Source: Nostoc sp. LPT
Lineage (GTDB): Bacteria > Cyanobacteriota > Cyanobacteriia > Cyanobacteriales > Nostocaceae
NCBI RefSeq assembly: GCF_017115165.1
Contig: NZ_JABXKF010000184.1
Coordinates: 62,001-126,000 of the forward strand
Length of the DNA: 64,000 nt
Reading direction: 5' to 3'
Part shown: positions 3,086 to 39,370 of the stretch, piece after piece
How positions within the stretch are numbered: position 1 is the first letter of the stretch
How the letters are laid out: every line of letters starts with the position of its first letter
Notes under the pieces: model-generated
The model's database searches: none
Seen by the model: only the letters and a program-made list of their open reading frames with translations
What the model was told of the DNA's origin: nothing
Made by a program: the position numbers and the translations under genes

Positions 3086-4408
3086 ATGAAAAAAATTAGA
3101 ACCGCCTTAGCCTTCAGTATAGCTACCTTAGCAACTGGATTTTTAGTTGGGGCTTGTGGTGATAATAGTACTCCCAACGGTGCAGCTAACAACGGAAGTA
3201 TTTCTACCCCAGCGGCAAACTCAACTACTACAAGCAGTGCTAAAGGACTAAAAATTGGTTCACTGCTACCAACAACAGGCGACTTGGCTTCTGTAGGACA
3301 GCAGATGCTAGGTTCCGTTCCTTTACTTGTTGATACGGTCAACGCTTGCGGTGGAGTGAATGGCGAATCTGTTACTTTGGTGCAAGTAGACGACCAAACC
3401 GACCCGAAAGCTGGAGCCGCCGGTATGACCAAACTAGCAACTTTAGATAAAGTTGCAGGTGTTGTTGGTTCCTTTGCCAGTAGCGTTTCTAGTGCAGCAG
3501 TCTCCATTGCCACACCAAATAAAGTAATGCTGGTTTCTCCTGGTAGTACCAGTCCTGTATTTACCGAAAAGGCTCAAAAAGGCGACTATAAAGGCTTTTG
3601 GGCACGTACAGCCCCCCCCGATACATACCAAGCACTAGCTTTAGCCCAACTTGCCAGAAAAAAAGGTTTCAAGCGAGTTTCTACAGTCGTGATTAATAAT
3701 GACTATGGCGTAGGGTTTGAAAAAGCATTCGTGCAAACTTTTGAAAAATTGGGTGGAACTATAGTTAATAAAGATAAGCCTGTCCGCTACGATCCAAAAG
3801 CCCAAACATTTGATACAGAAGCGGCTGCTGCTTTTGCTGGTAAGCCAGATGCAGTCTTGGCTGTACTCTATGCAGAAACTGGTAGTCTGTTCCTGAAAGC
3901 CGCCTATCAACAAGGTGTGGCAAAGGGAGTACAGATTCTGTTGACAGATGGGGTAAAATCACCGACTTTTCCCGAACAAGTTGGCAAAGGCGGTGATGGT
4001 AAATATATTTTAACAGGAGCGATCGGTACAGTACCGGGTTCCGATGGGAAAGCATTAGAAGCTTTCAACAAGCTGTGGAAAGATAAAAAGGGTGGTGCGC
4101 CAGGGGAATACGCTCCTCAAGCTTGGGATGCAGCTGCTTTATTGACATTGGCGGCGCAAGCTGCTGAGGAAAATACAGGCGTTGGTATAGCCAGCAAAAT
4201 TCGGGAAGTTGCTGATGGGCCTGGCCCAGAAGTTACTGATGTCTGCGAGGGGCTGAAGTTACTTAAAGATGGTAAAAAAATTAACTACCAAGGAGCCAGC
4301 GGCAACGTAGATGTCGATGCTAACGGCGATGTCGTTGGTGTATACGATGTTTGGACAGTAGGAGACGATGGCACAATCAAGGTGATTGACAAAGTTACTC
4401 CTAAATAA
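3086..4408 (+). CDS. ABC transporter substrate-binding lipoprotein (Peripla_BP_6, amino-acid type)
   Basis: Predicted solute receptor of an ABC importer in the branched-chain/neutral amino-acid (LivJ-like) group. The N-terminus has a basic start, a hydrophobic stretch and the lipobox LVGAC with cysteine at residue 24, so the protein should be lipid-anchored on the outer face of the inner membrane. A low-complexity Ser/Thr/Asn linker (about residues 28-52) leads into the binding fold, which starts LKIGSLLPTTGDLASVG. Length is 440 residues. A GAGGAG purine run lies upstream of the ATG. No permease or ATPase genes are adjacent, so it is an orphan component here. It may correspond to NatB of the Anabaena N-I amino-acid transporter, but I cannot prove this. 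Confidence 0.85.
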   Translation: MKKIRTALAFSIATLATGFLVGACGDNSTPNGAANNGSISTPAANSTTTSSAKGLKIGSLLPTTGDLASVGQQMLGSVPLLVDTVNACGGVNGESVTLVQVDDQTDPKAGAAGMTKLATLDKVAGVVGSFASSVSSAAVSIATPNKVMLVSPGSTSPVFTEKAQKGDYKGFWARTAPPDTYQALALAQLARKKGFKRVSTVVINNDYGVGFEKAFVQTFEKLGGTIVNKDKPVRYDPKAQTFDTEAAAAFAGKPDAVLAVLYAETGSLFLKAAYQQGVAKGVQILLTDGVKSPTFPEQVGKGGDGKYILTGAIGTVPGSDGKALEAFNKLWKDKKGGAPGEYAPQAWDAAALLTLAAQAAEENTGVGIASKIREVADGPGPEVTDVCEGLKLLKDGKKINYQGASGNVDVDANGDVVGVYDVWTVGDDGTIKVIDKVTPK

Positions 4409-4464
4409 AAACTAAGGAGTTATGAGTTATAAATTTAATCTTAATAACTCCTAACTCCTAATTC

Positions 4465-5310
4465 TTAAAGCCCGCTGAAGTTGTAACCAACTCCTAACAA
4501 CAAGCCTACATCAGTTTCATCAAAAAATCCGGCATTTATAGCAGCTGTTGCCGTAAATTGAGAAGTTAAAGGCACATCAATGCCAGCAGATGCCAAAAAG
4601 GCAAATTGCGAATCATCACCAGTTTTATAAGCTGCACCCACTCCGACGTAAGGTGCGATCGCTAATGGTTCGCTAAAAGCATCTGCTGATTTGAAGGTAA
4701 AATCATAGGTGATCGGAAGTAAAATTGTGGTGTTATCCCCAAATACGGCTGAGGGTCGCACTGATATAGAATTTGTCAGTCCGATTTTGCTAACTACTGC
4801 AAAGTTACCATCGCCCAAAGACGTGTCACCACCACTCAAACCAATGTTAGCAGCGATCCCAAGATAGCTACTACCACCACTTGTAGTTCTACCTAAATCA
4901 ATATTCGATTGCGCCACTTTGGTAGCAGATGGTTGAGCAGTAGCTTGAGAAGTTGGTTGTACAACAAATTCAGAGGTAAGCGTCGCAGATGAAGTCGCCA
5001 CTGTGCCTGGAACGGGTGTCGGTGTTACACTGGCGTTTTCTTGTATCACAGTGTTGGGCAACTGCTCTACCTTAGTTAAATTTGTGACTGTAAAAGTCTT
5101 AGTTATTTCTGTAGAGAGATTTTGGCTTTCAGTGTCTATTTCTGGATTAAACTCGTTGGGAGACGCTACGGTTGCGGAAGGTTCAGTTAATGGCTGACTA
5201 CTTACCTTGTCTACTGTCTGGGCGCTTGCAGATAAACCGCTACTCAGGAATGCAAGAGCAGCTAAACTTGGCAACCAAAAAACACCTTTATGAAGAAAAA
5301 TAGTATTCAC
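4465..5310 (-). CDS. exported protein with outer-membrane-barrel-like C-terminal domain
   Basis: Unknown function. I choose the GTG start at 5310 because an AGGAG ribosome site (5316-5320) sits five bases before it and it places a good signal peptide (FWLPSLAALAFLSSGLSASA) at the N-terminus; a longer frame to 5400 exists but lacks such a site. A long Thr/Ser/Pro/Val-rich region follows (roughly residues 35-145). The last ~130 residues consist of alternating hydrophobic/polar, glycine-rich strands (for example YLGIAANIGLSGG and VGLLLGVGYNFSG) typical of small outer-membrane beta-barrels. The gene is convergent with the binding-protein gene. Family assignment is inference from composition. Confidence 0.75.
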   Translation of the reverse strand: MNTIFLHKGVFWLPSLAALAFLSSGLSASAQTVDKVSSQPLTEPSATVASPNEFNPEIDTESQNLSTEITKTFTVTNLTKVEQLPNTVIQENASVTPTPVPGTVATSSATLTSEFVVQPTSQATAQPSATKVAQSNIDLGRTTSGGSSYLGIAANIGLSGGDTSLGDGNFAVVSKIGLTNSISVRPSAVFGDNTTILLPITYDFTFKSADAFSEPLAIAPYVGVGAAYKTGDDSQFAFLASAGIDVPLTSQFTATAAINAGFFDETDVGLLLGVGYNFSGL

Positions 5311-5834
5311 ATTCACTCCTAAAACAATGTTGCCACGAAAGATAAAGGTTTTTGTTGATTTAGTCAACAAGTTCGGGCAATACTCAAAATTTAGCATCAA
5401 AAAATCGGTTTGACATCAAGCACTTTACTTGATTTCTCTAGTTAATATTTACTAGCAAAAAACTAAATACTATGGCAATCTTAAATTATTCGTGAGAAAC
5501 AAGACCCCCGACAACTTTTACGACATTGGGAATCTGTGGGTTGCAATTTTCACAAGTTAAATAGAATTGCTAGATATTTATTTTGAATATCCTGAATTTG
5601 ACAGATGACAAATAGTCTTTTTGCTTAAAACTAAGATAGTGTTTGTTAAGGAGGCGATCGCAATTGCGACCTCTCCGATGAAGGGAAGAAGTTTTTTAGC
5701 ATAACTGCCTTGCCGCCAAAGGTAGCTAGATTGTGAAGTGATATTACAAAGCTTGCAAAAATATTTAGAAATTGCCTACAAGGCAAACATAGTTCTAACG
5801 TAGAACCTATTAGGAGAGACTTGAGGCAAATGTG
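5311..5834. other. intergenic region without recognised gene
   Basis: AT-rich stretch between two divergently oriented genes. It contains the promoters of both and one HIP1 octamer near 5653. I see no coding frame that looks real (a minus-strand frame at 5646-5903 overlaps the next gene's start) and no stable RNA. Confidence 0.5.
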
Positions 5835-6152
5835 ATGAGCGACAATAATATTCAAAAGTATCGGTTTGTCTGTACCCTGACTTTCGGTGATATCTACGGT
5901 CAAATAATTGTTTGGTTGATTACAATTACCCTAAGTTTGGCATCAGCTTTGGCGCTGATGGGTGCCAAGCGGCCCGTGTACGCTTTAGCAACAGCAGGTC
6001 TTGTCGTTCTGCTATCGCTACCTTTCTTGTTGTTTGCGTTTGTCACTACCTTGTTAAATCATATTGAAGTCAGTCCTGTAGGGCCGGGAACCAAAATGGA
6101 ACCTATACCAGGTAATGTGTCTCAGCAACAACCTGTACAAGCAACTAGCTAA
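5835..6152 (+). CDS. small conserved membrane protein
   Basis: A 105-residue protein of unknown function. After a short polar N-terminus come two hydrophobic segments suitable as membrane spans (about IIVWLITITLSLASALALMG and ALATAGLVVLLSLPFLLFAF), then a Pro/Gln-rich tail. A GTG at 5832 is an alternative start; the ATG at 5835 is preferred because GAGG at 5823-5826 lies 8 bases upstream. A rho-independent terminator follows, separating it from the dehydrogenase gene. It resembles proteins seen only in cyanobacteria as far as I recall. Confidence 0.75.
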   Translation: MSDNNIQKYRFVCTLTFGDIYGQIIVWLITITLSLASALALMGAKRPVYALATAGLVVLLSLPFLLFAFVTTLLNHIEVSPVGPGTKMEPIPGNVSQQQPVQATS

Positions 6153-6252
6153 AGAGTTAGGAGTTATGAGTTATGAGTTATAAGTCACTCTATCTGTGCC
6201 ATAACTCTTTGTTTTTAACTTTTCACTCCTAATTTCAAAATTTTTTATAACG

Positions 6253-6279
6253 TCCCTGTCTATAAGCAGGGATTTTTTT
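6253..6279 (+). terminator. rho-independent terminator
   Basis: Stem TCCCTG / CAGGGA with an 8-base loop followed by seven T residues, about 100 bp after the stop codon of the small membrane-protein gene. Confidence 0.75.
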
Positions 6280-6365
6280 GTAGAGATGCGACTGTTACAA
6301 CGCACTAGCTGATTAATCACGTCTCTACAATAGAACAGCAGTGGTTTGCAATCAGGGGGCTAATT

Positions 6366-8093
6366 ATGCTGGAACACGATGTGATTATTGTCGGGGGTGG
6401 ATTGGCGGGATGTCGCGCTGCTGTAGAAATTGCCCGCACTGACCCTAGTTTAAATATTGCTGTGGTTGCCAAAACCCATCCAATTCGTTCTCACTCGGTT
6501 GCAGCTCAAGGTGGTATGGCTGCATCGCTGAAAAATGTTGATTCTGAAGATAGTTGGGAAGCACACGCTTTTGATACTGTCAAGGGTTCTGACTACTTGG
6601 CAGACCAAGATGCTGTAGCAATTCTCGCCCAAGAAGCGCCAGATGTGGTAATTGACTTGGAACATCTCGGCGTTTTGTTCTCTCGCTTACCCGATGGGCG
6701 CATTGCCCAAAGGGCTTTTGGCGGACATTCTCACAACCGCACTTGCTACGCTGCTGACAAAACAGGTCATGCGATTTTGCACGAATTGGTTAACAATTTG
6801 CGGCGTTATGGGGTGCAAGTTTACGAAGAGTGGTACGTAATGCGTCTTATTTTAGAAGAAAATGAGGCAAAGGGTGTGGTCATGTTCCATCTTTTGGATG
6901 GACATATAGAGGTGGTGCGGGCTAAGGCGGTGATGTTTGCCACAGGGGGCTATGGTCGCGTTTATAATACCACCTCTAATGATTACGCTTCTTCAGGTGA
7001 TGGTTTAGCAATGACTGCGATCGCAGGTTTACCCCTTGAAGATATGGAATTTGTCCAGTTTCATCCTACTGGTTTATATCCGGTAGGGGTGCTGATTTCG
7101 GAAGCGGTACGGGGAGAAGGGGCGTATCTGATTAATAGTGAAGGCGATCGCTTCATGGCGAATTATGCACCCAGTCGCATGGAACTAGCTCCTCGTGATA
7201 TTACCTCACGAGCGATCGCTTACGAAATTCGCGCCGGACGTGGTATTCATCTCAATGGAAGTGCTGGCGGCCCTTTTGTCTATCTGGATTTACGCCATTT
7301 AGGCAAAGAAAAAATTATGAGTCGTGTTCCCTTCTGTTGGGAAGAAGCCCATCGTTTAGTAGGTGTTGACGCAGTAACTCAACCAATGCCAGTCCGTCCG
7401 ACAATTCACTATTGTATGGGTGGTATACCAGTGAACACCGATGGTCAAGTTCGTAGTAGTGGCGATGGTTTAGTTGATGCTTTCTTTGCTGCGGGTGAAA
7501 CATCTTGTGTTTCCGTACATGGTGCAAATCGTTTGGGGAGTAATTCACTATTGGAATGTGTAGTTTATGGCAAGAGAACTGGGGCTGCGATCGCCAAATT
7601 TGTGCAAAAACGTAAGTTACCCTCTGTAGATGAGCAACGGTATGTAACAGAAGCCCAGCAACAAATTCAAGCTTTGCTAGAACAACCAGGACAGTACCGT
7701 ATTAACCAAGTCCGTGAAGCTTTTCAGGATTGTATGACTGAGTACTGCGGTGTTTTCCGCACTCAGGCATTAATGACTGAAGGTTTAAAGAAACTAGAAG
7801 AAATACAACAAAAATATCCTCAAATTTATTTAGATGACAAAGGTAGTTGTTGGAATACAGAACTCGTAGAAGCCTTAGAGTTGCGAAGTTTAATGGTAGT
7901 GGGACAAACTATTTTGGCATCAGCTCTGAATCGCCAAGAAAGTCGTGGCGCTCATTTCCGCGAAGACTATTCCCAGCGAGATGATACGAACTTTCTCAAA
8001 CACACAATGGCTTACTATTCACCAGCCGGAATTGATATTCAATATCGATCGGTGGCGATTACCATGTTTGAGCCAAAAGAGCGGAAGTATTAG
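6366..8093 (+). CDS. sdhA: succinate dehydrogenase / fumarate reductase flavoprotein subunit
   Basis: FAD-containing catalytic subunit that oxidises succinate (or reduces fumarate) and feeds electrons to the quinone pool of the thylakoid/plasma membrane. The 575-residue protein starts with the FAD motif [15 protein letters not shown], followed by SHSVAAQGG, where the histidine is the usual covalent flavin attachment site. The active-site region is represented by [11 protein letters not shown] and [10 protein letters not shown], and [12 protein letters not shown] is the C-terminal FAD contact. No iron-sulfur (sdhB) or membrane-anchor gene is adjacent, which is common in cyanobacteria where sdh genes are scattered. 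ATG at 6366 directly precedes the FAD motif. Confidence 0.95.
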
Positions 8094-8175
8094 CCAAAGG
8101 TAAATTTATATGAGAAATCGAGGGGACTGCAAAAATTTTGTCCACCTCGATTAAGAATATGAAATGATTAAGTTA

Positions 8176-8376
8176 TCAATCAGAACCTAATTGTTTTTGA
8201 ATCACAGCTATTATCTTTTCTTCCCAAGCCGGATCGTTTAATTTTATTGCAGCATCACGATGACGAGATTTTCGTCTATCCATATAAGCATAAAAGGCTT
8301 CCTTATCATCCTTGTGTGTAATAAAGTAACTCTTTAGCTCTTGGTCGCTCATTGCTGCATAGTTTACCTTATTCAT
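8176..8376 (-). CDS. small DUF6887-like protein
   Basis: Unknown function; 66 residues. The core MSDQELKSYFITHKDDKEAF is shared with the neighbour at 8755 (MTNTELKQYISKHRNEEEAF), showing that the two are paralogues. From memory this is the cyanobacterial DUF6887 family, usually found next to DUF6888 genes, exactly as here (the partner lies immediately upstream). The start codon lies inside the third copy of a 19-bp tandem repeat. No catalytic motif is visible; the protein is small, charged and probably helical. Confidence 0.75.
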   Translation of the reverse strand: MNKVNYAAMSDQELKSYFITHKDDKEAFYAYMDRRKSRHRDAAIKLNDPAWEEKIIAVIQKQLGSD

Positions 8377-8427
8377 AGTTCTACACTACATTCATGGTTC
8401 TATACTACATTCATGGTTCTATACTAC
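8371..8427. repeat. three 19-bp tandem repeats at a gene junction
   Basis: Units at 8371-8389, 8390-8408 and 8409-8427; the last two are identical and the first differs at two positions. Read on the minus strand each unit contains ATGAAT. The stop of the upstream DUF6888-like gene falls in the 8409 unit (as ATGA) and the start of the downstream DUF6887-like gene falls in the 8371 unit. Confidence 0.9.
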
Positions 8428-8602
8428 CATCTGGCGTAATTTCTAGCTCTATTCCTTCATTTTGACCAGCTAATATAAATATATTGAGCGATCGTTCATC
8501 TAATCGCACGATGTGAATTGGCTGAAACATTACATTTGTAAGTTGATGGCAAAGTCTATATAAGGATTGTAGCTGTTCAACTCTTGGTTGTAGCTCGTCC
8601 AT
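8411..8602 (-). CDS. small DUF6888-like protein
   Basis: A 63-residue protein of unknown function. The segment LYRLCHQLTNVMFQPIHIVR followed by NIFILAGQNEGIELEITPDG is what I recall for cyanobacterial DUF6888 proteins. It is co-directional with, and 34 bp upstream of, the DUF6887-like gene at 8176, so the two probably form one transcript. The pairing is typical of these families, but no biochemical role is known to me; a toxin-antitoxin-like module is only a speculation. Confidence 0.7.
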   Translation of the reverse strand: MDELQPRVEQLQSLYRLCHQLTNVMFQPIHIVRLDERSLNIFILAGQNEGIELEITPDGSIEP

Positions 8603-8754
8603 AAATTTTCTCTTTATAAATCTATATGTAACAAACTTAATAATATAAACTCATCCAGCGATGCTCTCATAGTTGTGATTCTCACATCCTATTTAGCATT
8701 CCAAATGAACTTCCCCTTCTCACCGGGTCAATATGGGAATTGGAAATTTGTTCT

Positions 8755-8964
8755 ATGATGCAGAACCTCAACCAAATGACCAATACTGAATTAAAGCAGT
8801 ATATTTCAAAACATAGAAATGAAGAAGAAGCGTTTCGGGCTGCATTGCAAGTTTTGATGAGTCGTTGTGACTGTGCTACACAACACCCTTATCCTTTCGA
8901 TCTTGACAATCCTGAGAAAGAGGTAGAAGCCCTTTTAAAAGAGAAAATCAATCGAGCTAAGTGA
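8755..8964 (+). CDS. small DUF6887-like protein, divergent paralogue
   Basis: About 69 residues. The N-terminal half aligns with the gene at 8176 (TELKQYISKHRNEEEAF against QELKSYFITHKDDKEAF). The C-terminal half differs and carries a lysine-rich end (EALLKEKINRAK). Start candidates are ATG 8755, ATG 8758 and the upstream TTG 8740; 8755 best matches the paralogue's N-terminus. It is divergent from the DUF6888-DUF6887 pair. Function unknown. Confidence 0.65.
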   Translation: MMQNLNQMTNTELKQYISKHRNEEEAFRAALQVLMSRCDCATQHPYPFDLDNPEKEVEALLKEKINRAK

Positions 8965-9219
8965 TTTCTATGGTTTATAGTTTAAATTGAGGCTTAGTAC
9001 AGCTTTACATAAGTTCATAGCGAATTGACAGAGGAAAACTTTTGAGGCTAGGGTGAGCAACAGGAGTTGTCCTCAAGCATCCAAGATATGACTGGTCAGC
9101 AAAAAACCTACAGGATTCTACGATCGCACCTACAAAATGTAGGATTTAGCAGTAAGTGCGAAGATATTTTCTGTATGCCGTAAAATTCTTACTATAAAAA
9201 CAAGATTTTTATTTAAAAT
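8965..9219. other. intergenic region
   Basis: No coding frame seen. A short inverted repeat CCTACA...TGTAGG (about 9129-9144) spans part of it. The segment just before the next gene is AT-rich and probably holds its promoter. Confidence 0.4.
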
Positions 9220-28585: not shown

Positions 28586-29277
28586 TTATCGGGCTAGCAA
28601 TTTCTTATGTTTACGCTATTAGTCTGCTTGTGATTGGCGAGGGATTGCGTAAGCTGTTTGGTGTGAAACCAGATTTGACTCGCAAAGTAATCCATATTGG
28701 CGCAGGGATGTGGGCTTTCGGCGTCCTGCTACTGTTTAGGAAGTGGGAAATCGGAATTATACCTTTTGCTACCTTTATCGGATTGAACTACCTATTTTAC
28801 CGCTACCGAATCATCGGCGCAATGGATACCCAGGATAGCTCACCCGGTACAGTTTATTTCGCTATCTCAGTGACGCTGCTGTTCGGGCTACTGTGGCGAC
28901 CAGAGGGGCCAGTAGATAGCGCTCCAATTGCTGTAGCAGGAATAATGGCGATGACCTGGGGTGATGCACTAGCAGCATTAATCGGTAGACGTTTTGGGCA
29001 GCATAAATACCAAGTGGGAAGTTCTGTACGTTCCTGGGAAGGTTCAGCAGCAATGTTTATAGCGAGTACAGTAGTGATTTTCTTGGTGCTGTTACTGCTA
29101 CCTGGTTCGTTGCTGAGTCCTTTCGCAACGCCTTTAAGTTTAGGATGGGCATTGTTGACGGCGGTGGTAACTGCTACTTTCGCAACCCTAGCAGAGGCAG
29201 TTTCGCCCCACGGCACAGATAACCTCAGCGTACCTCTAACAGCGGCGGGAGTAGTTTGGATTTTCATGCAGGCTTAA
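28573..29277 (+). CDS. phytol kinase-like / polyprenol kinase family membrane protein
   Basis: Integral membrane CTP-dependent kinase family (VTE5/Sec59/DGK1 type). In cyanobacteria and plants such enzymes salvage phytol from chlorophyll turnover for tocopherol and chlorophyll synthesis. The 234-residue protein has six or so hydrophobic segments, the family motif RKVIHIGAGMWAFG near the N-terminus, and AMTWGDALAALIGRRFG plus SWEGSAAMF in the middle. The start codon lies inside a heptamer repeat. A tnpB remnant abuts its stop codon on the other strand. Confidence 0.85.
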   Translation: MTNDFIGLAISYVYAISLLVIGEGLRKLFGVKPDLTRKVIHIGAGMWAFGVLLLFRKWEIGIIPFATFIGLNYLFYRYRIIGAMDTQDSSPGTVYFAISVTLLFGLLWRPEGPVDSAPIAVAGIMAMTWGDALAALIGRRFGQHKYQVGSSVRSWEGSAAMFIASTVVIFLVLLLLPGSLLSPFATPLSLGWALLTAVVTATFATLAEAVSPHGTDNLSVPLTAAGVVWIFMQA

Positions 29278-29883
29278 TTCGTTTCTCACTCGTTGTCCAC
29301 CCTTCGGGTTTTGCGCCGAACGTAGGCAGAAAATCGCCGTCCAAAAAACTAGTTTTACTAGTATACGATTCTTCAGCTTCAACAAAATTGATGCGATATT
29401 CTTCACACAATTGCTTGATTCTTTCTTTGAGCTTGGCAGTTGGTATCTGCACAAAAGATTGAGTTGTCTTACCAAGCTTTGCTTCTTGCCGTTGCCCTTG
29501 ATTCCACCCAAAAACAACTGTACCAATTTGATGCTTAACGCAATAGTCAACAACCAGTCTTGCGATTTTATTAATTGCATCTCGCGTCTGGTGATTCCGT
29601 TTTTCTGTTATATATGCTAACTGTTCATCCCAGTATCCTTGCGCTTTACCTTCTTTCAATGTGCTAACACGTTTGTTGTACCACTGATTAAGTGATTTAA
29701 CTTTGTGCCCATCAATAATAAAGCTAGTTCCAATACTGGAGACACAGCTTAACCAGTTGTTGATACCTGGGTCTATTGCTAAAGCAGACTGAGGATTTAG
29801 TTTGAAGTCTGGTGTTGGCTCAAATTCTTGTACGCTGTAACAAAAGATAAAACTATTACTCAGGTAGTGGAAGAACTTTTAGA
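29267..29883 (-). pseudogene. TnpB (IS200/IS605-type, RuvC-like) C-terminal remnant
   Basis: The minus-strand frame reads ALAIDPGINNWLSCVSSIG, KSLNQWYNKRVSTLKEGKAQ, GTVVFGWNQGQ and FVEAEESYTSKTSFLDG, which is the RuvC domain of TnpB with its first Asp and the Glu of the second motif. It stops at KRIKPA, just before the zinc-finger and third catalytic Asp. Upstream, homology continues as KVLPLPE in another frame, so at least one frameshift (about 29850-29865) is present, and the N-terminal half is missing because the IS630 element begins there. It is non-functional: no complete active site, no tnpA. Confidence 0.8.
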
Positions 29884-29903: not shown

Positions 29904-30800
29904 TTAGGACGCTGTGCGAAGCACATCTTCCATAGCATTCCGAAGACAGTCAAATTGAATTAGTTGTTTACGAATTTGACTCTTTAACCATGAGCAACAT
30001 CGCTCAATTTTATTAAGTTCGGGTGAATAGGATGGCAAGTATTTTAAGTGACAGTCTGCCGATTCAATTAATTCTTGAATACATCCACCTCGATGAAATG
30101 TGGCATTATCTGCAATCACTATTTGTGCAGGTTTTAGCGATGGTATTAAACAAGTTTCTAGCCAAGTTTCAAAGACAGTTCGCTTCCTTGCACCCTCCAC
30201 AGTAAATGGAGCGAATAATTTCCCATTACAACAGGCAGCAATCATATTAACTCGTCTTTGTCTCCTCCCACTTTTCAGTGCATGAAATCGCTGACCTTTT
30301 TCATTCCACCCATAGCCATAATCTTCTCTATTATCCATTCCAGCTTCATCTATATAGACTATTGACTCTGGTTTGTACATCGCTATCTCTTCTCTAAATT
30401 CTTGTCGTTTAACTTCATCTCGTTCTTGATAACCATAAGTTTTTTTTCCGAGTGAACCCAATTTTCTTTAAGGCTCTTGATATTGTGCGTTAGCCTAGCT
30501 CGCCGTAGGCATCGCTAATTTCTACCGACCATAATTTGGCCATATCTACTTGAGTTTTATCCCCATTAACCTCAACAAATTTTTCAAATTTTTCCCAGTC
30601 GGTAATTTTATGCCCATTACAAGAGTGGTTGATTTGGTAACGCTTGGTAATCTCCTGTTCTGGCAAATCGATTGAAGCCAAAGGTTGATTGTATTTCGAC
30701 TGATTTGAAAAACTTGAGCCGCTTCACTCTTCTTCATCCCGTCTAACTCAATTGCCTGAATTACCTTCTGACGTAAGTCGTAACTGTAGGATTTTGGCAT
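29904..30800 (-). pseudogene. IS630-family transposase, frameshifted
   Basis: Three pieces make one protein. 30800-30680: HTH part, MPKSYSYDLRQKVIQAIEL. 30681-30516: second frame with HKITDWEKFEKFVEVNGDKT, QVDMAKLW, VEIS. 30461-29904: DDE part with VYIDEAGMDNREDYGYGW, VIADNATFHRGG and YLPSYSPELNKIE. The first junction near 30680 is a frameshift. The second is an inserted 29-bp dispersed repeat (30487-30515) right after VEIS. The third is a run of eight A residues near 30440-30447 (coding strand), where the frame changes again between TRKK and KKTYGYQ. The catalytic D, D, E can be seen, but the gene as read is broken. Confidence 0.8.
30487..30515. repeat. 29-bp dispersed repeat inserted in a transposase
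   Basis: On the minus strand it reads GCGATGCCTACGGCG...GCTAACGC, a copy of the family also found at 22609, 35202, 44579 and 48824. It interrupts the transposase reading frame between VEIS and RALKKIGF. Confidence 0.75.
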
Positions 30801-30893: not shown

Positions 30894-31436
30894 CAGTTAC
30901 CCTGAAAGCAAATATCACTTGATGCTCATTTTAGCTCAAGGGTGTCTAATGATCGCTTTTTGAATCTAATTTTTATCGATTTATTCGATGTAGTAATTAA
31001 CCTGACATTTGGTACATTACTTCGCACTAAAATCTGCAATTATTCATGGGATAGAGTTGTAAATGATGAGCTTTCAACACCAGAAAGTAGCGCTAGTTCT
31101 TCTAAATATTCACCATCCTTAGAAGAGGTACAAACCATTCCTATTCCATGAAGCCTATCTGCTGTAGCGATTCTCATTTGAATGAAATATAGGCTTAGGG
31201 GCGTACATTTGTGCGCCTTTATGAAAATCTATGTTTATCTGTGGTTAATTGTATCGATTGTCCACAAGCAATAACTAGAATTTTAACGGGAATAGGGTAA
31301 AAACCAGAGGGGCTTTTATTGTTGATGGGCAATACTACCCAAAATAAGCAGAGCAGCAGAAGTTGAAGATGTTGTTCCTTCAGAGTATTTGGGAATACTA
31401 GACTTGAAAAACTTTGTTGGCAAAGGCAAGCAGTGG
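30894..31436. other. region upstream of the helicase gene
   Basis: No convincing gene. A plus-strand frame 30942-31151 (69 codons) has unremarkable composition and no ribosome site, so I do not call it. A degenerate copy of the palindromic GGGGCGTAC repeat lies at 31196-31221. The minus strand next to the IS edge reads HQVIFAFRVT, which may be another tnpB scrap. The frame that continues into the helicase is open from 31389, but ATG 31437 starts its recognised domain. Confidence 0.5.
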
Positions 31437-34400
31437 ATGAACAACGCCCAAGTCAGAATCTATGAGCTATCAAAAGAATTGAATTTGGAGAACAAAGAGT
31501 TAATAGCAATTTGCAACAAACTTAACATTGCAGTCAAAAGCTATAGCAGCAATATTTCAGAGTCTGAGGCAAAACGAATCCGTTTGGCTGCTGAAAAACT
31601 GGCATCTAAAAATGGGACACCCAAAAATGAATTAGGTATAACCAGTCATCAACCAAAGTCACCAGAAATTATCTCTCAAAATCCACTTGCTTCACTTCAC
31701 AAACAACAAATTTTGGGAATTCTTAAACCAATAATCTTAACAAATCGTCCCTTTAACACCCCAGAATTATCCATTACTACATCTTTCCATAAAATAGATT
31801 CTGAAGATTGGGGCTATACATTAGTCAGTTCGACAATTGATAGTTTGATCAGCAATATTGAAAGTCAAACAGCCCTTGAATCATATCCCGACTTTTGGCA
31901 GCGACGAGAGCGTGCTAACGAGCTAATATTTGATTTACTGGGCCAAGAGCCTCGCCTAGTCTATGTACGCCGCAAGGGCGCAGGTAGAAATCCTGGAGAA
32001 GAAATTTGGGATTTAACCATAGCAACAGATCAGCATGATTTCCAATTACCTGCAAGACTTGAGAAGCTAGGAAAAACACTAGGATTTATAGCAGTTGTAG
32101 AACAAGATGGAAGGGGTAGTTTAAAGGTACTATCTGCTAAGTTGCTACAACTTTCACAAGGAAATGCTGATGGCTATGCTGTACCTTATCGTTTACGGCT
32201 ACTGCCTAATCATGACTATCACATCAATATTCCGCCAACGGCATTGGCACGGATGGCAGCCATGCCTATATGCGGCGACCATCTGCCTACAGAAGCTCAT
32301 CTGCGAATTTGGGAAGTATTTTTACAGATTGAGGAAAAAATCGCTAAAGCGCGCCAATTTTGTGTGCCTTTTTTCAGTCACAATGGCTTCGGCTTCGGAA
32401 GATCGATCACTTTTGTGATTGACATAACCTCAGCTACTGTTGACGGTTCTAATGAAAATTCCTTGGCTGTGGAAAAGTTCTGGGAACGGGTAAAACAAGC
32501 AAAGAATGAAGAGGTTAAGCTGTTCGAGACTACTCCCACAGGACAAAATAGGTGCAGCAGCCGCAAATTAGGAACTATTAAAGAAATTCTCCCAAACAGT
32601 TGCACCATCAGCATCAGGCTAAAAGACTCTCTAGCTGACGATATGGCAGCAGGACGTTATCAGCTACCAGCGACCGGATTTTTGTTTTTCGAGGCATTTG
32701 GTGACATCCAACAGATTCAGCGTAAAAAAGAAGCCTTGACACAATTAAAACAGGGACGCACCCAAAATCCCTATTTAGGAAACTTTTTATTCGACGCTTC
32801 CCAAGCAAGACTTATTCAAGAAACTGTCGAATTGCGACCAGAGGATTTGTTGTTATTCTCAGCTAATCCTAGTCAGAAAGCAGCAGTAGAAATGGTGCTT
32901 GCATCTGAGGATTTAGTTCTCATTCAGGGGCCACCAGGTACTGGTAAAACTACCGTAATTGCCGAGATTTGCTATCAAGTTGCTCTAAGGGGTGGACGCA
33001 CTCTAATTACTTCTCAAGCCAATTTAGCAGTAGATAACGCCTTGAGTAGATTAGTTCATAATCCAGTGATTCGGGCTGTGCGAAAGGGAAACGCCGAAAA
33101 AGTTGCAGAGGAAGGACAACCATTTTTAGAAAATCGAGTGATTAGCACATGGCTAGAAAATACCGCTACTGACTGCGAAAAGAATCTTACCCAACGCCTC
33201 GATAATGTAAGAGTTTTACAGTAATTATTGGCAGCATTACAACGATTCACAGCATACCTGAAAGTAGAAGAGGTATTTAAGGGAGAGCAGAATTTATTAC
33301 AGACGCGTAAAGCAAATTTAGAGTCAGCTTGTACGACCCAAAAAAATGAATACAATCAAGCCGCATCCCAACTGGCCGAGGTCGAATCTCTGAAAACTGC
33401 TTTGGAGGAGTTGTTGAATCAAGCACCTTCAGTAGACTGGCAAGATCCAACACTTCTTAATTTATGGACGGGTCTGAATAAATACACATCTACAGACGCT
33501 TCCTTGCAAAACTTTGCTGCAAATCTTCGGTTAGCAATTGATTTGGCTTCTAAACTTGGTATGGTTAAACCAAATAAGCCGCGATTTGGTTTAGCCGGTT
33601 GGTTGCAGAACACTGTAGCTTCTTGGATTACTGAAGTTCGTACAGCATTAGCCTACGCCAGTAATATAGCTATAGCAATGACCGAAGCGGAGTTAGCTGC
33701 ACAAAGTTACACACAAAATTCAGAATCTCTTGCTCGCCTAAAGTCAAATCACCAACAATTGCTTGCTAATCAGCAAAGCTTCCAATCAAGAATTAGAAAT
33801 CTACACAACCGTGAATCTGAAGTCAGTTTAGCAATAAATGACCTTGATATATGGCTGTCTACAGCTAATTTAAATATCATCAATGTATTGACACAGTGCT
33901 TACAAAATCGTCAAGACTTTACAGTTAACTTAATCTCATTACCTTCGGGATTACGAAGCATGACGATCGCAGATCAATATCTACCCTGGCAACAAAGTAT
34001 TGATCAGTGTCAGTTGAAAGTCAATGAATTAATTCAAAAATATCGCCCATGGGATAGAGTATGCAGTCGGGTTACTGAAATCAGAGATTTACTCGTGCGG
34101 GGGCGAAATCTACTAGGTAATCGCTCAATCAATGAAGCTGCTATTTCCCAGGTGAGCGTTAGTAACGCACAAGACCCTGTGGAATCTCTCATAAAGCTGA
34201 AGCAACTAGCACAAAATAGCATCAATGAAATTGAGAAACCACTAGGAGTTTGGGGTCGGATTATTGAATGGATGCTTGCGGTTGCTGTCAAGCAGAAAAG
34301 TATGGATTCCATAGCTCAAAAATTACGTCCATATAGTCGCCGTCATAGCGCGGCAGTAACTCTTGAAGCTATTAGGAGACAAGCCCAGATTATACGTCAA

Positions 34401-36229
34401 AGAGTTCAGCCTGTTGAAAGTGAATCGGCTATCTCCCAAATTACAAAGGAGGTGGTCAACGGCATAGTTACGAGTGCGCGTACATGGCTGAAGCAACTAC
34501 AGACTGAAACCGAAAATGAGCAAAAGCAGCTTGAGGTTCAATTGAATGAACAGATGAGCTTGGCGACTAATGAACAGCAAAAAATATCTGCTAATCAAGA
34601 GCAGCTAGAAAATTATCGTAGTGAAGCTGACTTCAAATTTCAAAGAGTGATCGCACTTTCACAAGAACTTTTATCCTTTCCACACTTACCGAATGAATTA
34701 AAACTTTTAGTGCAACGATACCTCAATAATTCTTCAAATATTCTGACTGAATCCTCACAATTTACAGCAAAAATACGGAACTGGGAAAATCGGCTAAAAC
34801 AACTTGATAGTTTGATTTCCTTAATCAATCCTTTTGCTACAGTTTTGACTATCAAAGACCTGCTGGTAATTCGCATTTCTAGCTTGCAGACACAACTGAA
34901 ACTTACAAAAACAAATTTCTAGAAATTCAAAGCCAAAGACAGAAAATTGTTGAGCATTTACAGCAGCAATTAGAATATATCTCAAATGAGCGAACTTGGT
35001 GGCAGTCAATTTGGGAAGCTATTCCTGGGGAATTCAAGCCTGAAGTTGATTCTACAGACTTGTTTAATCTGGAATCCTTACGGAATATCAAGACTCAATT
35101 TGAATATTGGCAACAGCAGCTCCAAAATGAAGAAATTTATCTCAATCGATATCAGCACTTTGTCCAAGATTGGATAGGAAAATTAAGACAGCCAACGGAA
35201 AGCGATGCCTGCGGCGGGCTACGCCTACGCACTGATTTAAGGCGGATTTATCTAAATAATGCCAACGTCATTGGTATCACTTGTGTTCAGGCCGCAAATT
35301 ATGATTTTTCACAAGAATTCAAATACTTTGATGTTGTCATTATTGATGAAGTAAGTAAATGTACTCCTCCAGAGTTATTAATCCCAGCTTTGAAAGGCAA
35401 AAAGTTAGTCATGGTAGGCGACCATCGACAATTACCACCCATGCTTGACACGAATACTTTAGAGGAAGTTTCTCAAGAGATTGGCAGCACAAATACAGAA
35501 CTAGAATTATTGCAAGAGTCACTGTTCAAAATTCAGTTTGAAACTGCTAATGATAGCATCAAAGAAATGTTAAATATTCAATATCGAATGCACCCGATTA
35601 TTATGGGGGCAATCAATCAGTTTTATGATGGTAAACTAGAATGTGGGATTTTGAAGCCCGATACAAAACGCGCACATAATTTAGCAGGCAAAATCATCCA
35701 AGAATATCACCATATTATCTGGATAAAAACGCCTGGAAGTAATGAGTTTAAAGAGGAAACCATAGGAACTTGATTTTTTAATATTCCAGAAATTAATGCG
35801 ATTGAACGTCTATGTAAGCAGTTTGAGACTACTTGGGCTTCTAGAGTTGCTAATGGTGAACCAAAAAAAGAAATTGCCGTGATTACTTTTTATGGCGCTC
35901 AACTCAGGAAAATTGATGAACGCTTGCAATCTAAACATTTTCCATCGCTACAAATCACCACTGGTACAGTAGACCGATTTCAAGGTATGGAACGACCTGT
36001 TGTAATTGTGAGTATGGTTCGCAATAATAATAGAGGAGATGTGGGATTTGCCAAGAAACCGGAACGAGTTAACGTTGCATTTTCCCGCGCTCAAGAATTA
36101 CTAATAATTGTGGGTTGTCATTCGCTATTTACTCAACAGCGTCGACAAGTCGGGAGTATGTACTCCAATGTTTCAAACATCGTGTGTCTACATGGAGGTT
36201 TCGTTGATGTTTCTCGCCTCTTCTGCTAA
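31437..36229 (+). pseudogene. Upf1/COG1112-type SF1 helicase with IF2_N domain, interrupted
   Basis: Reconstructed ~1,600-residue protein. Residues 2-55 ([20 protein letters not shown]) are an IF2_N domain nearly like cyanobacterial IF-2. A ~430-residue region of unknown fold follows, then Walker [11 protein letters not shown] (32928-32957) and motif Ia [13 protein letters not shown] long charged, helical insert spans 33.2-35.0 kb. The remaining SF1 motifs are all present: IIDEVSK, VGDHRQLPP, QYRMHP, TVDRFQGMERPVVIV and VAFSRAQELLIIVG. Lesions: in-frame TAA at 33222-33224 (same frame continues), a frameshift at about 34880-34920, and in-frame TGA at 35771-35773. Its 3' end overlaps the PLD gene by 23 bp. 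Partial products could still be made; sequencing error cannot be excluded for any one lesion. Confidence 0.82.
35202..35230. repeat. 29-bp dispersed repeat inside the helicase reading frame
   Basis: GCGATGCCTGCGGCGGG...CTACGCCTACGC is read in frame as DACGGLRLR between a helical segment and the next helicase part. It does not break the frame. Confidence 0.8.
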
Positions 36230-38039
36230 ACCGATTGATGACAATATCAAGAATTTTGTTGACGAAATAGAAGCGCAAAGTCCTAGTTTATCAGTTTTAG
36301 CAGCGCGTGAATTCCGTTATAGTTTACGACAAACTCAGGTAGAAGTAAACATTAAAAAACCTCGTCAGTTTAACGTACTTGAAGAATTTATCATCCGCGC
36401 CGCTATTGAATTTAAACCTCCGCCAACAGAGGATGAATTAGCCTCTATACTTGGGCTTGATTCTGTATTTATTAAAACTACTACTACAACTCTTCGTTCC
36501 TTACAAACTCTATCACCAATATCGCCACTAACAGTTACTCCTGAAGGTCGCTCATTTTATGAAAAAGGGTCTGTACCACAGCCGCCATATCCTATACAAA
36601 TTTATGCTATTACTGACCCTTTAAGCGATAAGATAACCTTTCAATCTGAATCACTAAACGAGACAACGATAAATTTGCCTGACTTAGCAGACTTTATAAC
36701 TATTGATCATACAATTGCTGATATTGCTTCCCTACCCCTTGAAGAAATACAAAAAAGTATTCAAGCTTCAGGTTTAGCACTTCATGTGCCAGAAGAGGGA
36801 AAAATTGTAACTTCCTGTAGGGTGCTAGCTTCGACTCAAAAAATCTGGACAAAAATATCGCTTTTCGTTATTTTTGATGCTCTTGAAGATAAATTGAGCA
36901 TTCAAATAAGAAATGGAAAGCAAATTTTAGAGTCAGCATCAAATTGGTTAGAATTTTTACATACTGAAGGTAAAATATCTTTGCAAGCATTATGTAAGTT
37001 GTCAACTGAAACCATAGATTTTGAACGCGAAGTCATTCTCAAGCAGAAAAATACTCAAATAGAAGCTAGACTCGAAAATATTCGCCAAAAGGCGCTAGAA
37101 GCTGCCACAGTGAACAATTTAAAAATAGATAATTTTACAGTGGTAGGTGAAGCTATACAGTTACGCGATGGGCAAATTGCTCAAGCTTTTATAGAAGTTT
37201 TAAATTCGGCTAAAAGTCAAGTTCTTATTTATTCTCCTTGGGTGAATCAGGCAGTTGTCAATGAAAAATTTATAACTCTTTTACAGAAATTAGCTAATCG
37301 CGGAGTCTGGATTTTAGTTGGACATGGAATTGCGCGGCGAGAAGAAGATGAGAATAAACCAATTTCACCAGAAGTAGAAAAAAAACTTCGAGCGATAAAA
37401 ACACCTGATGGTTTACCATCCGTACAGGTTTTTTGGTTGGGAGATTCCCATATCAAAGAAGTAATAGTTGATAAAGAAATCCATCTTTGCGGCTCTCATA
37501 ACTGGCTATCCTATCGCGGCGATTACCTACCACGAGGTGAGTCAGTTTATAAAGTTACAATCCCACATCAAGTCCAGGAAGCTTATGAATTTCTCGCTAA
37601 TCGCTTCCAAAATCACGCTCAAAAATTATGGCAAAATGCTTTAGAAAACCGCAATTCTGAACTAGCTATAGAGTCTTTATGTGTGTGGGGTGCGCTAGGT
37701 ATGGAAGATATTGCACTCAAAGAGATACAGAAAAATAATTGGCTTGAACTTCTGCCTGTATGGTTGAATGTAGCAATACAGGGATTAAAATCGAAAAACT
37801 TCTCAGGTGATTCAGCAAGTTTTAAAACTGCACTTTCGTTGCTAAGTCAAGTTTCTATTGAAGAGGCTTTTATTGAGTTATTGCAACAGGGATGGCGTAA
37901 AGTTATCGGCGCGATCGCAATTAACAATCCCGAAACTGCTTTCAACTTACTTAGTGATGAAGTATGGGCGCAATTTATACGTCTCAAGATTGTTCAAGAG
38001 AGTGATTCACCCAATGATTTGATTTTGTACTGTATTTAA
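36207..38039 (+). CDS. phospholipase D-like (HKD) protein partnered with SF1 helicase
   Basis: Intact 610-residue protein. A GGAGG ribosome site at 36194-36198, eight bases before ATG 36207, fixes the start inside the helicase gene's 3' end, so translation is probably coupled. Residues ~1-340 are unrecognised (possible helix-turn-helix at PPTEDELASILGL). The PLD-like domain starts around VLIYSPWVNQAV and contains one HxK(x)4D motif, HIKEVIVD, followed by GSHNWLSYRGD, the usual GSxN companion. Only one HKD is visible, so a dimer would be needed for activity. The C-terminal ~150 residues are helical. PLD proteins next to COG1112 helicases occur in anti-phage systems; that role is inferred. Confidence 0.85.
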   Translation: MFLASSAKPIDDNIKNFVDEIEAQSPSLSVLAAREFRYSLRQTQVEVNIKKPRQFNVLEEFIIRAAIEFKPPPTEDELASILGLDSVFIKTTTTTLRSLQTLSPISPLTVTPEGRSFYEKGSVPQPPYPIQIYAITDPLSDKITFQSESLNETTINLPDLADFITIDHTIADIASLPLEEIQKSIQASGLALHVPEEGKIVTSCRVLASTQKIWTKISLFVIFDALEDKLSIQIRNGKQILESASNWLEFLHTEGKISLQALCKLSTETIDFEREVILKQKNTQIEARLENIRQKALEAATVNNLKIDNFTVVGEAIQLRDGQIAQAFIEVLNSAKSQVLIYSPWVNQAVVNEKFITLLQKLANRGVWILVGHGIARREEDENKPISPEVEKKLRAIKTPDGLPSVQVFWLGDSHIKEVIVDKEIHLCGSHNWLSYRGDYLPRGESVYKVTIPHQVQEAYEFLANRFQNHAQKLWQNALENRNSELAIESLCVWGALGMEDIALKEIQKNNWLELLPVWLNVAIQGLKSKNFSGDSASFKTALSLLSQVSIEEAFIELLQQGWRKVIGAIAINNPETAFNLLSDEVWAQFIRLKIVQESDSPNDLILYCI

Positions 38040-38230: not shown

Positions 38231-39370
38231 GTGGTCTTATTAAAAGGCTTTGAGATTGAGATATACACTGGCACGCCTCAAGGTGAAATCGTCGGTCTCT
38301 CCGACAAAATTGTTGCGGCTTTGGATGGATTTATGCGCGAACCAGATAGCCGCAACGTTGAATACATCACTCAACCATCTCACAATTACGAAAATTTATT
38401 GTGTGCTTTGCTGCGTCCTCGGCGGGAGTTGCGAAACTACCTCAATCGTTTGGGCGATTACACCTTAATACCAGGGAGTACTTTATCTTTGGGTGGGGGC
38501 GATCGCTTTCTCCGTTCCGATCCAGCAAACCCATATCATGATTACATTGAGAACACCTACGGCACGAAAGTAGTTACCGCTAGCGTACACATAAATATAG
38601 GCATCAGCGATCCAGAAGTATTAATGCGGGCGTGTCGAGCGATCCGTATGGAAGCGCCCCTATTTCTCGCCCTCAGCGCCTCATCTCCCTTCTTGGATGG
38701 CAAAACTACTGGCTATCACTCCACCCGTTGGGGCGTCTTCCCACAAACGCCTAGCCATGTCCCCTTATTTGCCAGCCACGCCGATCATATCCAGTGGGTG
38801 GAAGATCAACTCCTTGCCGGAACCATGCAGAATGTGCGGCATTTGTGGGCATCGGTACGACCAAATGGCGATCGCCGTCCTTATGACCTAAATCGCCTAG
38901 AATTGCGAATTTGCGATTTAGTCACAGATCCTATTGCCTTACTAGCAATTACTGCCTTGTTAGAAGCACGTTTGTTGCAAATAATCGAAAATCCCAGCAT
39001 CGATCCGTTAACCCAAAGTACTTTCTCTGCTGAAGAACTTGTGACTCTGACTGCCGACAACGAAGCTGCTGCTGCTGCTAGTAGTCTCGATGCTCAGTTG
39101 AGACATTGGCAAGATGGTAGAAGCATCGTAGCGAGAGATTGGATTGCCGAAATGTACCAAGATGTTTGGGCGATCGCCAAGCAACAAGGTTTTAGCTGTT
39201 TCCTTTCCCCTTTGCACAAAATTCTCCGCGAAGGCAATGAAGCTCAACAGTGGTTGCAGTTACACGCAGTCGGTTTTGACACCCACCGCGTCATCACTCA
39301 GGCTATTATTGCCACCCAAGAGCGCGAAATTGAACTCGAAGACAAATTATGTTCGTCTCTGCTGGGTTAA
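38231..39370 (+). CDS. gshA: glutamate-cysteine ligase, cyanobacterial type
   Basis: First enzyme of glutathione synthesis, joining glutamate and cysteine with ATP. The 379-residue protein begins KGFEIEIYTGTPQGEIVGLS and contains the GCS2-like features VEYITQPSHNYENLL, TASVHINIGISDPE and RLELRICDLV. Start is GTG 38231 with GAGGAG ten bases upstream. Length and sequence agree with the cyanobacterial group as I recall it. It is separated by about 190 bp from the PLD gene and marks the return to housekeeping DNA. Confidence 0.9.
   Translation: MVLLKGFEIEIYTGTPQGEIVGLSDKIVAALDGFMREPDSRNVEYITQPSHNYENLLCALLRPRRELRNYLNRLGDYTLIPGSTLSLGGGDRFLRSDPANPYHDYIENTYGTKVVTASVHINIGISDPEVLMRACRAIRMEAPLFLALSASSPFLDGKTTGYHSTRWGVFPQTPSHVPLFASHADHIQWVEDQLLAGTMQNVRHLWASVRPNGDRRPYDLNRLELRICDLVTDPIALLAITALLEARLLQIIENPSIDPLTQSTFSAEELVTLTADNEAAAAASSLDAQLRHWQDGRSIVARDWIAEMYQDVWAIAKQQGFSCFLSPLHKILREGNEAQQWLQLHAVGFDTHRVITQAIIATQEREIELEDKLCSSLLG

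Follow-up and report, generated by a model that had tools for sequence, protein, structure and literature searches.

The helicase MkoA of Mokosh type I systems carries a Ser/Thr kinase. A NERD domain (PF08378) is also listed for type I (PMC10952713), and Mokosh is reported to degrade viral transcripts (PMC11291487). Here we describe a related gene pair in a stretch of 64,000 nucleotides from Nostoc sp. LPT (contig NZ_JABXKF010000184.1, positions 62,001 to 126,000; the whole stretch is called the window). The pair consists of a helicase gene whose 5′ end is homologous to that of infB and, overlapping it, the gene of a partner protein with a phospholipase D (PLD) region. On balance we favor the view that the window contains one copy of a two-protein system that resembles Mokosh, is probably antiviral and is resident in Nostocaceae. 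In this system the helicase would act as sensor, an adaptor joined to PLD as effector, and the infB-derived segment (IF2_N) as tether. Judged by its sequence, it is a Mokosh-like module that is partly decaying in this family.

The gene pair in the window and its paralogues

The helicase gene starts with the ATG at 31437 on the forward strand, as do all features below unless stated otherwise, and is distributed over four pieces in two frames. The 5′ piece (31437-33221) comprises the infB-derived N-terminus, an "EDWGY" domain and the start of RecA1 with Walker A, and matches Pfam IF2_N and AAA_11 (3.2e-18). It is closed by an in-frame TAA stop (33222-33224) and followed by a long insert (33228-34919), which has no PADLOC match, belongs to no Pfam family and, as regards its putative coiled nature, gives a weak match to SMC (E 0.032). 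The frame of the insert is closed by TAG (34920-34922), with a reading-frame change shortly before it. The next piece (35060-35770), with the motifs IIDEVSK, GDHRQLPP and QYRMHP, matches AAA_11 (1.8e-20) and AAA_12 (4.6e-10) and ends at an in-frame TGA stop (35771-35773); the 3′ piece (35774-36229), with RFQGMERPVVIV and AFSRAQELL, matches AAA_12 (8.6e-32). With two in-frame stops and one frame change, the window helicase is a pseudogene. We rejected sequencing error as the sole cause of the breaks in view of the three lesions here and of broken genes of the same type (copy-2, below) in G018, G020, G026 and G048.

The partner gene (36207-38039) is an open frame of 610 amino acids and overlaps the helicase by 23 bp (36207-36229). 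Its product has a conserved N-terminal part at residues ~1-290, for which we coined the name "adaptor", a PLD region at ~330-470 and a helical C-terminus; in the partner alignment the single HKD-type motif HIKEVIVD is followed by GSHNW (37449-37505). The preliminary description of this DNA, made from the letters, had claimed a Upf1/COG1112-type helicase with superfamily 1 motifs, an IF-2-like N-terminus, a long insert splitting the helicase core, the overlap with a PLD gene bearing these two motifs, and the absence of a kinase, all of which we recovered. It had also proposed a check with the Mokosh models of PADLOC: MkoA is the best model for three of the helicase pieces (5.3e-30, 1.3e-38 and 2.5e-36, from 5′ to 3′), and MkoB is the best for the partner (1.4e-26). 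The partner also matches Pfam PLDc_2 at 5.5e-6 (26.7 bits, slightly below the cut-off of 27). The closest PDB relative of the helicase core is UPF1 (3.3e-36), and residues 4-54 match IF-2 chains of the T. thermophilus type (2e-6). Neither a Ser/Thr kinase nor a NERD domain was found by Pfam at E≤0.01 in the window pieces or in the first 320 amino acids of 10 helicases, whose N-termini gave one Pfam match, IF2_N in L037.

An intact helicase paralogue of 1492 amino acids is encoded on a different contig of the same genome (C115:707-5185; MkoA, 3.1e-113). It shares 58% identity with the window helicase over window residues 17-610 and 68% over residues 134-610. This genome has a single partner, besides a 53-residue match inside the C115 helicase. 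Since the window helicase is dead, the partner, if it works with a helicase, must use the intact one on C115, and any working pair in this genome would thus join proteins from two contigs.

Some Nostoc genomes have a doubled helicase, in which an ordinary copy is followed by a window-like copy-2 that touches the partner (L037, L039 and L041). Among the eight copy-2 genes of the genus that keep the N-terminal part, five are broken (the window and the four genomes named above); that of G039 is open with part of the N-domain missing, that of G049 is open without IF2_N, and that of G032 is cut by the contig end. The ratio of nonsynonymous to synonymous substitution rates (dN/dS) is 0.10-0.32 in copy-2 pieces, the window included, and because this constraint is still visible, the lesions look recent. 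We rejected a recent tandem duplication of the ordinary copy as the source of the window helicase: in a quick tree of 70 helicase rows, drawn from selected loci, the copy-2 clade (8 rows; Shimodaira-Hasegawa-like approximate likelihood ratio test, SH-aLRT, 99) falls outside a 39-row clade of ordinary and other-genera helicases (96). In this tree, copy-2 has the position of an old paralogue or xenologue, its sister group being uncertain (SH-aLRT 81). The window insert is 85% identical to that of the G049 copy-2. Between ordinary helicases and the window copy-2 (L036-L055), the insert shares ~30-43% identity and the flanking helicase parts ~57-87%, as though inserts had been swapped.

Gene order is conserved in several genera (e.g., L046 and L054): a histone-deacetylase-family gene, helicase, partner, gshA, a SpoU-type methylase and an M23 peptidase. 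The histone-deacetylase-family gene lies upstream of the ordinary helicase in all 7 loci inspected (one by profile scan, the rest by eye), and gshA accompanies the partner at 27 of its 36 named loci; among the 9 without it, several end close to the partner. In the window, gshA (glutamate-cysteine ligase; TIGR02048, 2.3e-216) is at 38231-39370. Directly upstream of the window helicase, pieces of an IS630-family transposase are present on the reverse strand (29904-30800; 128.2 bits for 29904-30461, cut-off 100), and a short open reading frame (ORF) on the same strand (29264-29659) resembles the end of a TnpB-type transposase by eye, with no Pfam match at E≤0.001. A Uma2-family ORF (PF05685, 5e-13) occupies 12206-12802 of L037, between the ordinary helicase and copy-2 of G049.

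Origin of the helicase N-terminus

The segment homologous to the infB 5′ end spans 31437-31805, with the Pfam IF2_N core at 31449-31583 (residues 21-65 of the ORF starting at 31389; 1.6e-11). Residues 11-132 of the window helicase share 62% identity with the genome's own IF-2, and the segment aligns with its own infB at 76% nucleotide identity over 324 nt, starting ~15 nt before the ATG. Similarly, nine helicase 5′ regions share 74-87% nucleotide identity with three infB genes, the homology starting at the ATG or at most ~15 nt before it. The infB-matching length is 146-173 nt in ordinary copies and 303-349 nt in copy-2: ordinary Nostoc helicases retain the N1 part of IF2 (~50 residues), whereas copy-2 retains ~120 residues, including the IF-2 linker after N1. 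PF04760 was found in 59 of 59 relatives searched, and the matches listed are confined to IF-2-sized frames, these helicases and a few short frames.

Among the 68 tree rows scorable for IF2_N, the domain is present in 41 of the 46 belonging to one 48-row clade (SH-aLRT 81) and in none of the 22 outside, for which reason we rejected it as an old, general part of the helicase family. Parsimony requires 5 changes, e.g., one gain and four losses. Other helicase clades start straight at the EDWGY domain or have a different N-terminus of ~200 amino acids. In the helicases of L103, L104, L105, L106, L110 and L112, this other segment (GEYKGPFTI or similar) belongs to no Pfam family and looks beta-helix-like by eye. 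A gene of Aulosira laxa NIES-50 annotated as "IF-2 domain-containing" was considered as a plasmid-borne IF2_N helicase and rejected, its first 260 residues being without IF2_N.

We computed dN/dS by pooling pairwise comparisons over 29 ordinary copies, after dropping three rows (one frameshifted and two duplicates), and also over 23 same-genus copies (values in parentheses). It is 0.061-0.125 in the helicase core segments (0.040-0.095), 0.233 in the insert (0.187), 0.272 in IF2_N (0.235) and 0.614 in the linker after IF2_N (0.410); that of infB's own domain is 0.107 (16 genes). Given the DNA-level alignment to the infB 5′ end, the restriction to one clade and the purifying selection, we conclude that the IF2_N of these helicases was captured from infB, most simply once. 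In the literature covered (titles and abstract openings; few subscription papers), there is no description of a helicase with IF2_N or of a partner in the DarT form described below.

In E. coli, the N-terminal Domain I of IF2 is reported to bind NusA by pull-down and cross-linking, and AlphaFold puts the contact in N1 (1-50) and the two following strands (57-90) (PMC12297416). Nostoc NusA has 430 amino acids and an acidic tail. The captured piece (N1, to which the window copy adds part of the linker behind it) would most likely tether the helicase to NusA/RNA polymerase or to 30S. Two other explanations deserve attention. Homology that starts at most ~15 nt before the ATG includes the ribosome-binding site and no upstream region longer than that, as would be expected if the infB piece were merely an efficient ribosome-binding site and start region, acquired as a by-product of recombination; codons 2-52, however, show dN/dS of 0.24-0.27 versus 0.41-0.61 in the following linker, and the domain has been kept in most of its clade, so that we hold this explanation to be improbable. 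Alternatively, IF2_N could be an integrated bait, an exposed copy of host IF2, so that a phage protein that targets IF2, or the contact of IF2 with NusA, would trigger helicase and nuclease. That the N-terminus of what is probably an immune sensor recognisably copies a host domain suits a bait, as do the other clades with other N-terminal segments or none, the pattern that a swappable sensing part would show. Bait is nonetheless quite improbable in our view, given the 5 of 46 scorable clade rows from which IF2_N is missing, and we know of no phage factor aimed at cyanobacterial IF2, which we also count against it.

Distribution, effectors and function

Our survey covered 148 genomes, 53 of the genus (own genome included) and 95 outside it. 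Strong matches were defined by E≤1.5e-96 for the helicase and E≤4.1e-26 for the partner, cut-offs chosen after a gap in E-values was visible; at most 8 candidates were scored per genome, and G084, G085, G121 and G130, with weak PLD matches only, were counted as without. Among the 95 genomes outside the genus, 27 have both genes, none has one only and 68 have neither (P = 2.6e-24, Fisher's exact test, kinship ignored), in agreement with the pairing proposed in the preliminary description. The 27 genomes include 19 of 35 in the family and 8 of 60 in the order. The adaptor was found in 40 of 386 genomes of a phylum draw, all of them in the same order.

Within the genus, the ordinary helicase is near-core, with an open frame of 1494-1541 amino acids in 48 of 53 genomes. 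The others are G045 (a 935-amino-acid frame), G020 (broken), G041 (no strong match, a remnant beside the partner), and G028 and G035 (no strong match; genomes 85% and 72% complete). All 53 have a partner match, which is broken in G020 and G041, contains a stop in G026 and is divided between contigs in G028. The two genes also decay together: both are broken in G020 and G065, and only a split partner and a helicase remnant are left in G041. Of 48 genomes, 36 have helicase and partner on the same strand and no more than 16 kb apart, 5 have them at distant places of one contig, and 7 have them on separate contigs. Overlaps of 20-26 nt are also found in other families (L102, L103, L106, L107 and L108).

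The partner is modular. Most partners have PLD after the conserved adaptor of ~290 amino acids; others have nothing there, and those of a sister clade have DarT. Of 42 full-length partners, 40 show HxKx4D (the exceptions are L082 and L089), and in these 42 dN/dS is 0.224 for the adaptor, 0.237 for PLD and 0.295 for the C-terminus; it is 0.223 (n = 4) and 0.294 (n = 19, including L116, whose DarT part is split off) for short partners. In G054 and G080 the query matched on both sides of the PLD region and not through it. The partner model resembles TrmBL2 (a DNA-binding protein with a winged helix) as well as PLD proteins, among them Zucchini, NucT and Nuc, with a best E of 4.6e-4 and a high root-mean-square deviation, and a PDB profile search with the partner gave no matches at E≤0.01. 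Since all structure matches are weak, a winged helix in the partner is only a suggestion.

The C-terminal DarT domain (58.6-67.1 bits; cut-off 22.5) is fused to the adaptor in L115 and L117 and split from it in L116. Pfam identifies an ADP_ribosyl_GH neighbor in L115 and L117, and two of these loci, L115 and L116, lie within bacteriophage exclusion (BREX) clusters. On plasmid pC052_C of Nostoc sp. C052, the sister-clade helicase and partner lie inside a BREX cluster, with pglX on one side and pglZ on the other; this partner carries DarT, and the next gene encodes an ADP-ribosylglycohydrolase. In G025, the helicase and a partner split from its DarT part have genes for BrxC, an N6-methylase and a PglZ-domain protein around them. 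The DarT form also occurs with the glycohydrolase in G095, where no BREX gene was recognised in the listed stretch, and G016 has an adaptor without a recognised effector. The PLD form is also found on plasmids: beside hsdR (type I restriction-modification) and toxin-antitoxin genes in Cyanobacterium sp. HL-69, and adjoining two other helicase genes on a conjugative plasmid of Aulosira laxa NIES-50. The latter two (L197) are a UvrD-like helicase at 4362-6518 (2.4e-34 with the GajB profile) and a further MkoA-like helicase at 6580-9210 (4.8e-56). At other loci outside the family (e.g., L102, L104 and L108), no defence genes were recognised by eye.

The reading that we favor builds on what was observed of homology and pairing, of the origin from infB, of purifying selection, and of relatives with swapped effectors or, in some cases, with defence neighbors. 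The UPF1-like superfamily 1 helicase would be a nucleic-acid sensor, which, once tethered, would inspect new transcripts at the expression machinery; the partner would be an adaptor bearing a single-HKD PLD nuclease as effector, and engagement of the helicase would switch on the nuclease. For this last step we rely on the analogy of Hachiman and similar helicase-nuclease systems. A broader and more tentative possibility is a modular immune platform exchangeable at both ends. The helicase would swap N-terminal segments, in Nostocaceae using the NusA/30S-binding head of host IF2 as tether or bait for surveillance at the transcription-translation interface, and the adaptor would load PLD, the DNA ADP-ribosyltransferase DarT or no effector.

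Several observations weigh against an antiviral helicase-nuclease pair with an IF2_N tether. The AlphaFold model of the helicase N-part has a mean predicted local distance difference test score (pLDDT) of 51, reaching at least 70 only at ~1-50 and ~301-420 (in 10-residue blocks), and IF2_N is missing from 5 of the 46 scorable rows of its own clade, as noted above. The authors of the E. coli work state that the ends by which IF2 and NusA contact each other lack conservation across species (PMC12297416), so that the tether is offered as a proposal. The partner model is modest (mean pLDDT 73, predicted template modelling score 0.57), and 3 of its 486 PDB structure matches are at E≤0.001. A short partner without PLD recurs in 8 of 53 genus genomes (G005, G008, G012, G013, G014, G022, G042 and G051) and in 9 of 9 matches in genus g27, which makes the nuclease dispensable. 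In 12 of 48 genomes the two genes are distant or on separate contigs, and no defence genes were recognised by eye in the window and the Nostoc loci inspected, whose flanks were partly profile-scanned. Finally, the near-core distribution, the low core dN/dS within the genus and the conserved neighbors make the ordinary helicase look more housekeeping-like.

These last features, together with the strong purifying selection on the helicase and the similar constraint on short, PLD-less adaptors (0.22-0.29), could mean that helicase and adaptor form a core factor of RNA or DNA surveillance (e.g., in R-loop or mRNA quality control), with PLD as an accessory and kinship to Mokosh as ancestry only. 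We regard this as rather unlikely, since strong matches to both genes are missing together from 68 of 95 other genomes, the pair has decayed repeatedly, its relatives occur in BREX clusters and on plasmids, and its effector has been swapped to DarT. The preliminary description had taken core genes at a conserved locus outside defence islands as evidence against its proposal; within the genus this is in part the situation found, while elsewhere relatives have BREX clusters around them or, on a plasmid, restriction and toxin-antitoxin genes next to them. An antiviral function of the pair appears probable to us. If our reading is true, this is a bacterial helicase with antiviral function that acquired part of an essential translation factor, which would offer a direct route to ask how Mokosh-type helicases find their targets, whether these are initiating ribosomes or nascent transcripts close to RNA polymerase. 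With a single adaptor taking PLD, DarT or no effector, Mokosh would have to be seen as a platform of sensor, adaptor and effector, and the presence of the sister clade within BREX clusters suggests combined defence.

Comparison with known systems

By sequence comparison, the pair resembles Mokosh in its two main parts. It shares with type I the UPF1-like helicase and the PLD partner, each matched by its PADLOC model, and the adjacent, overlapping genes. Unlike in type I, kinase and NERD were sought and not found, for which reason we do not file the pair there; moreover, the helicase N-terminus is infB-derived or of another kind, the partner also has PLD-less and DarT forms, and the window helicase is a pseudogene. 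The preliminary description had called the pair a cyanobacterial Mokosh variant that might sense translation or RNA. What stands is a Mokosh-like pair of unusual architecture, with its MkoA and MkoB matches and with defence neighbors in relatives; IF2_N has proved not to be general to the class, and the helicase is near-core in the genus.

Mokosh type II (MkoC) also combines a helicase with PLD chemistry, and the pair gives weaker matches to MkoC, but type II is one fusion, whereas two separate frames are present in the window and in the other ORF pairs inspected. Three helicase pieces match the PLuB system helicase-like protein (NF040671) at 2.3e-15, 2.7e-14 and 8e-12, yet at 43-55 bits against a cut-off of 999. 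With the single-HKD nucleases Zucchini, NucT and Nuc, the partner shares the predicted PLD fold and one HxKx4D motif, and it has weak profile matches to DrmC of DISARM; unlike in these proteins, its PLD is embedded in a partner of 610 amino acids. The sister-clade partner resembles DarT/ADP-ribosylglycohydrolase systems in its C-terminal DarT domain and, in L115 and L117, its ADP_ribosyl_GH neighbor. DarT, which is absent from the window, comes in that clade attached to a Mokosh-type adaptor (the two being split in L116) and together with the helicase. The first ~50 residues of the helicases (~120 in copy-2) are homologous at the DNA level to the N1 domain of IF2 encoded by infB, which here is fused to a helicase.

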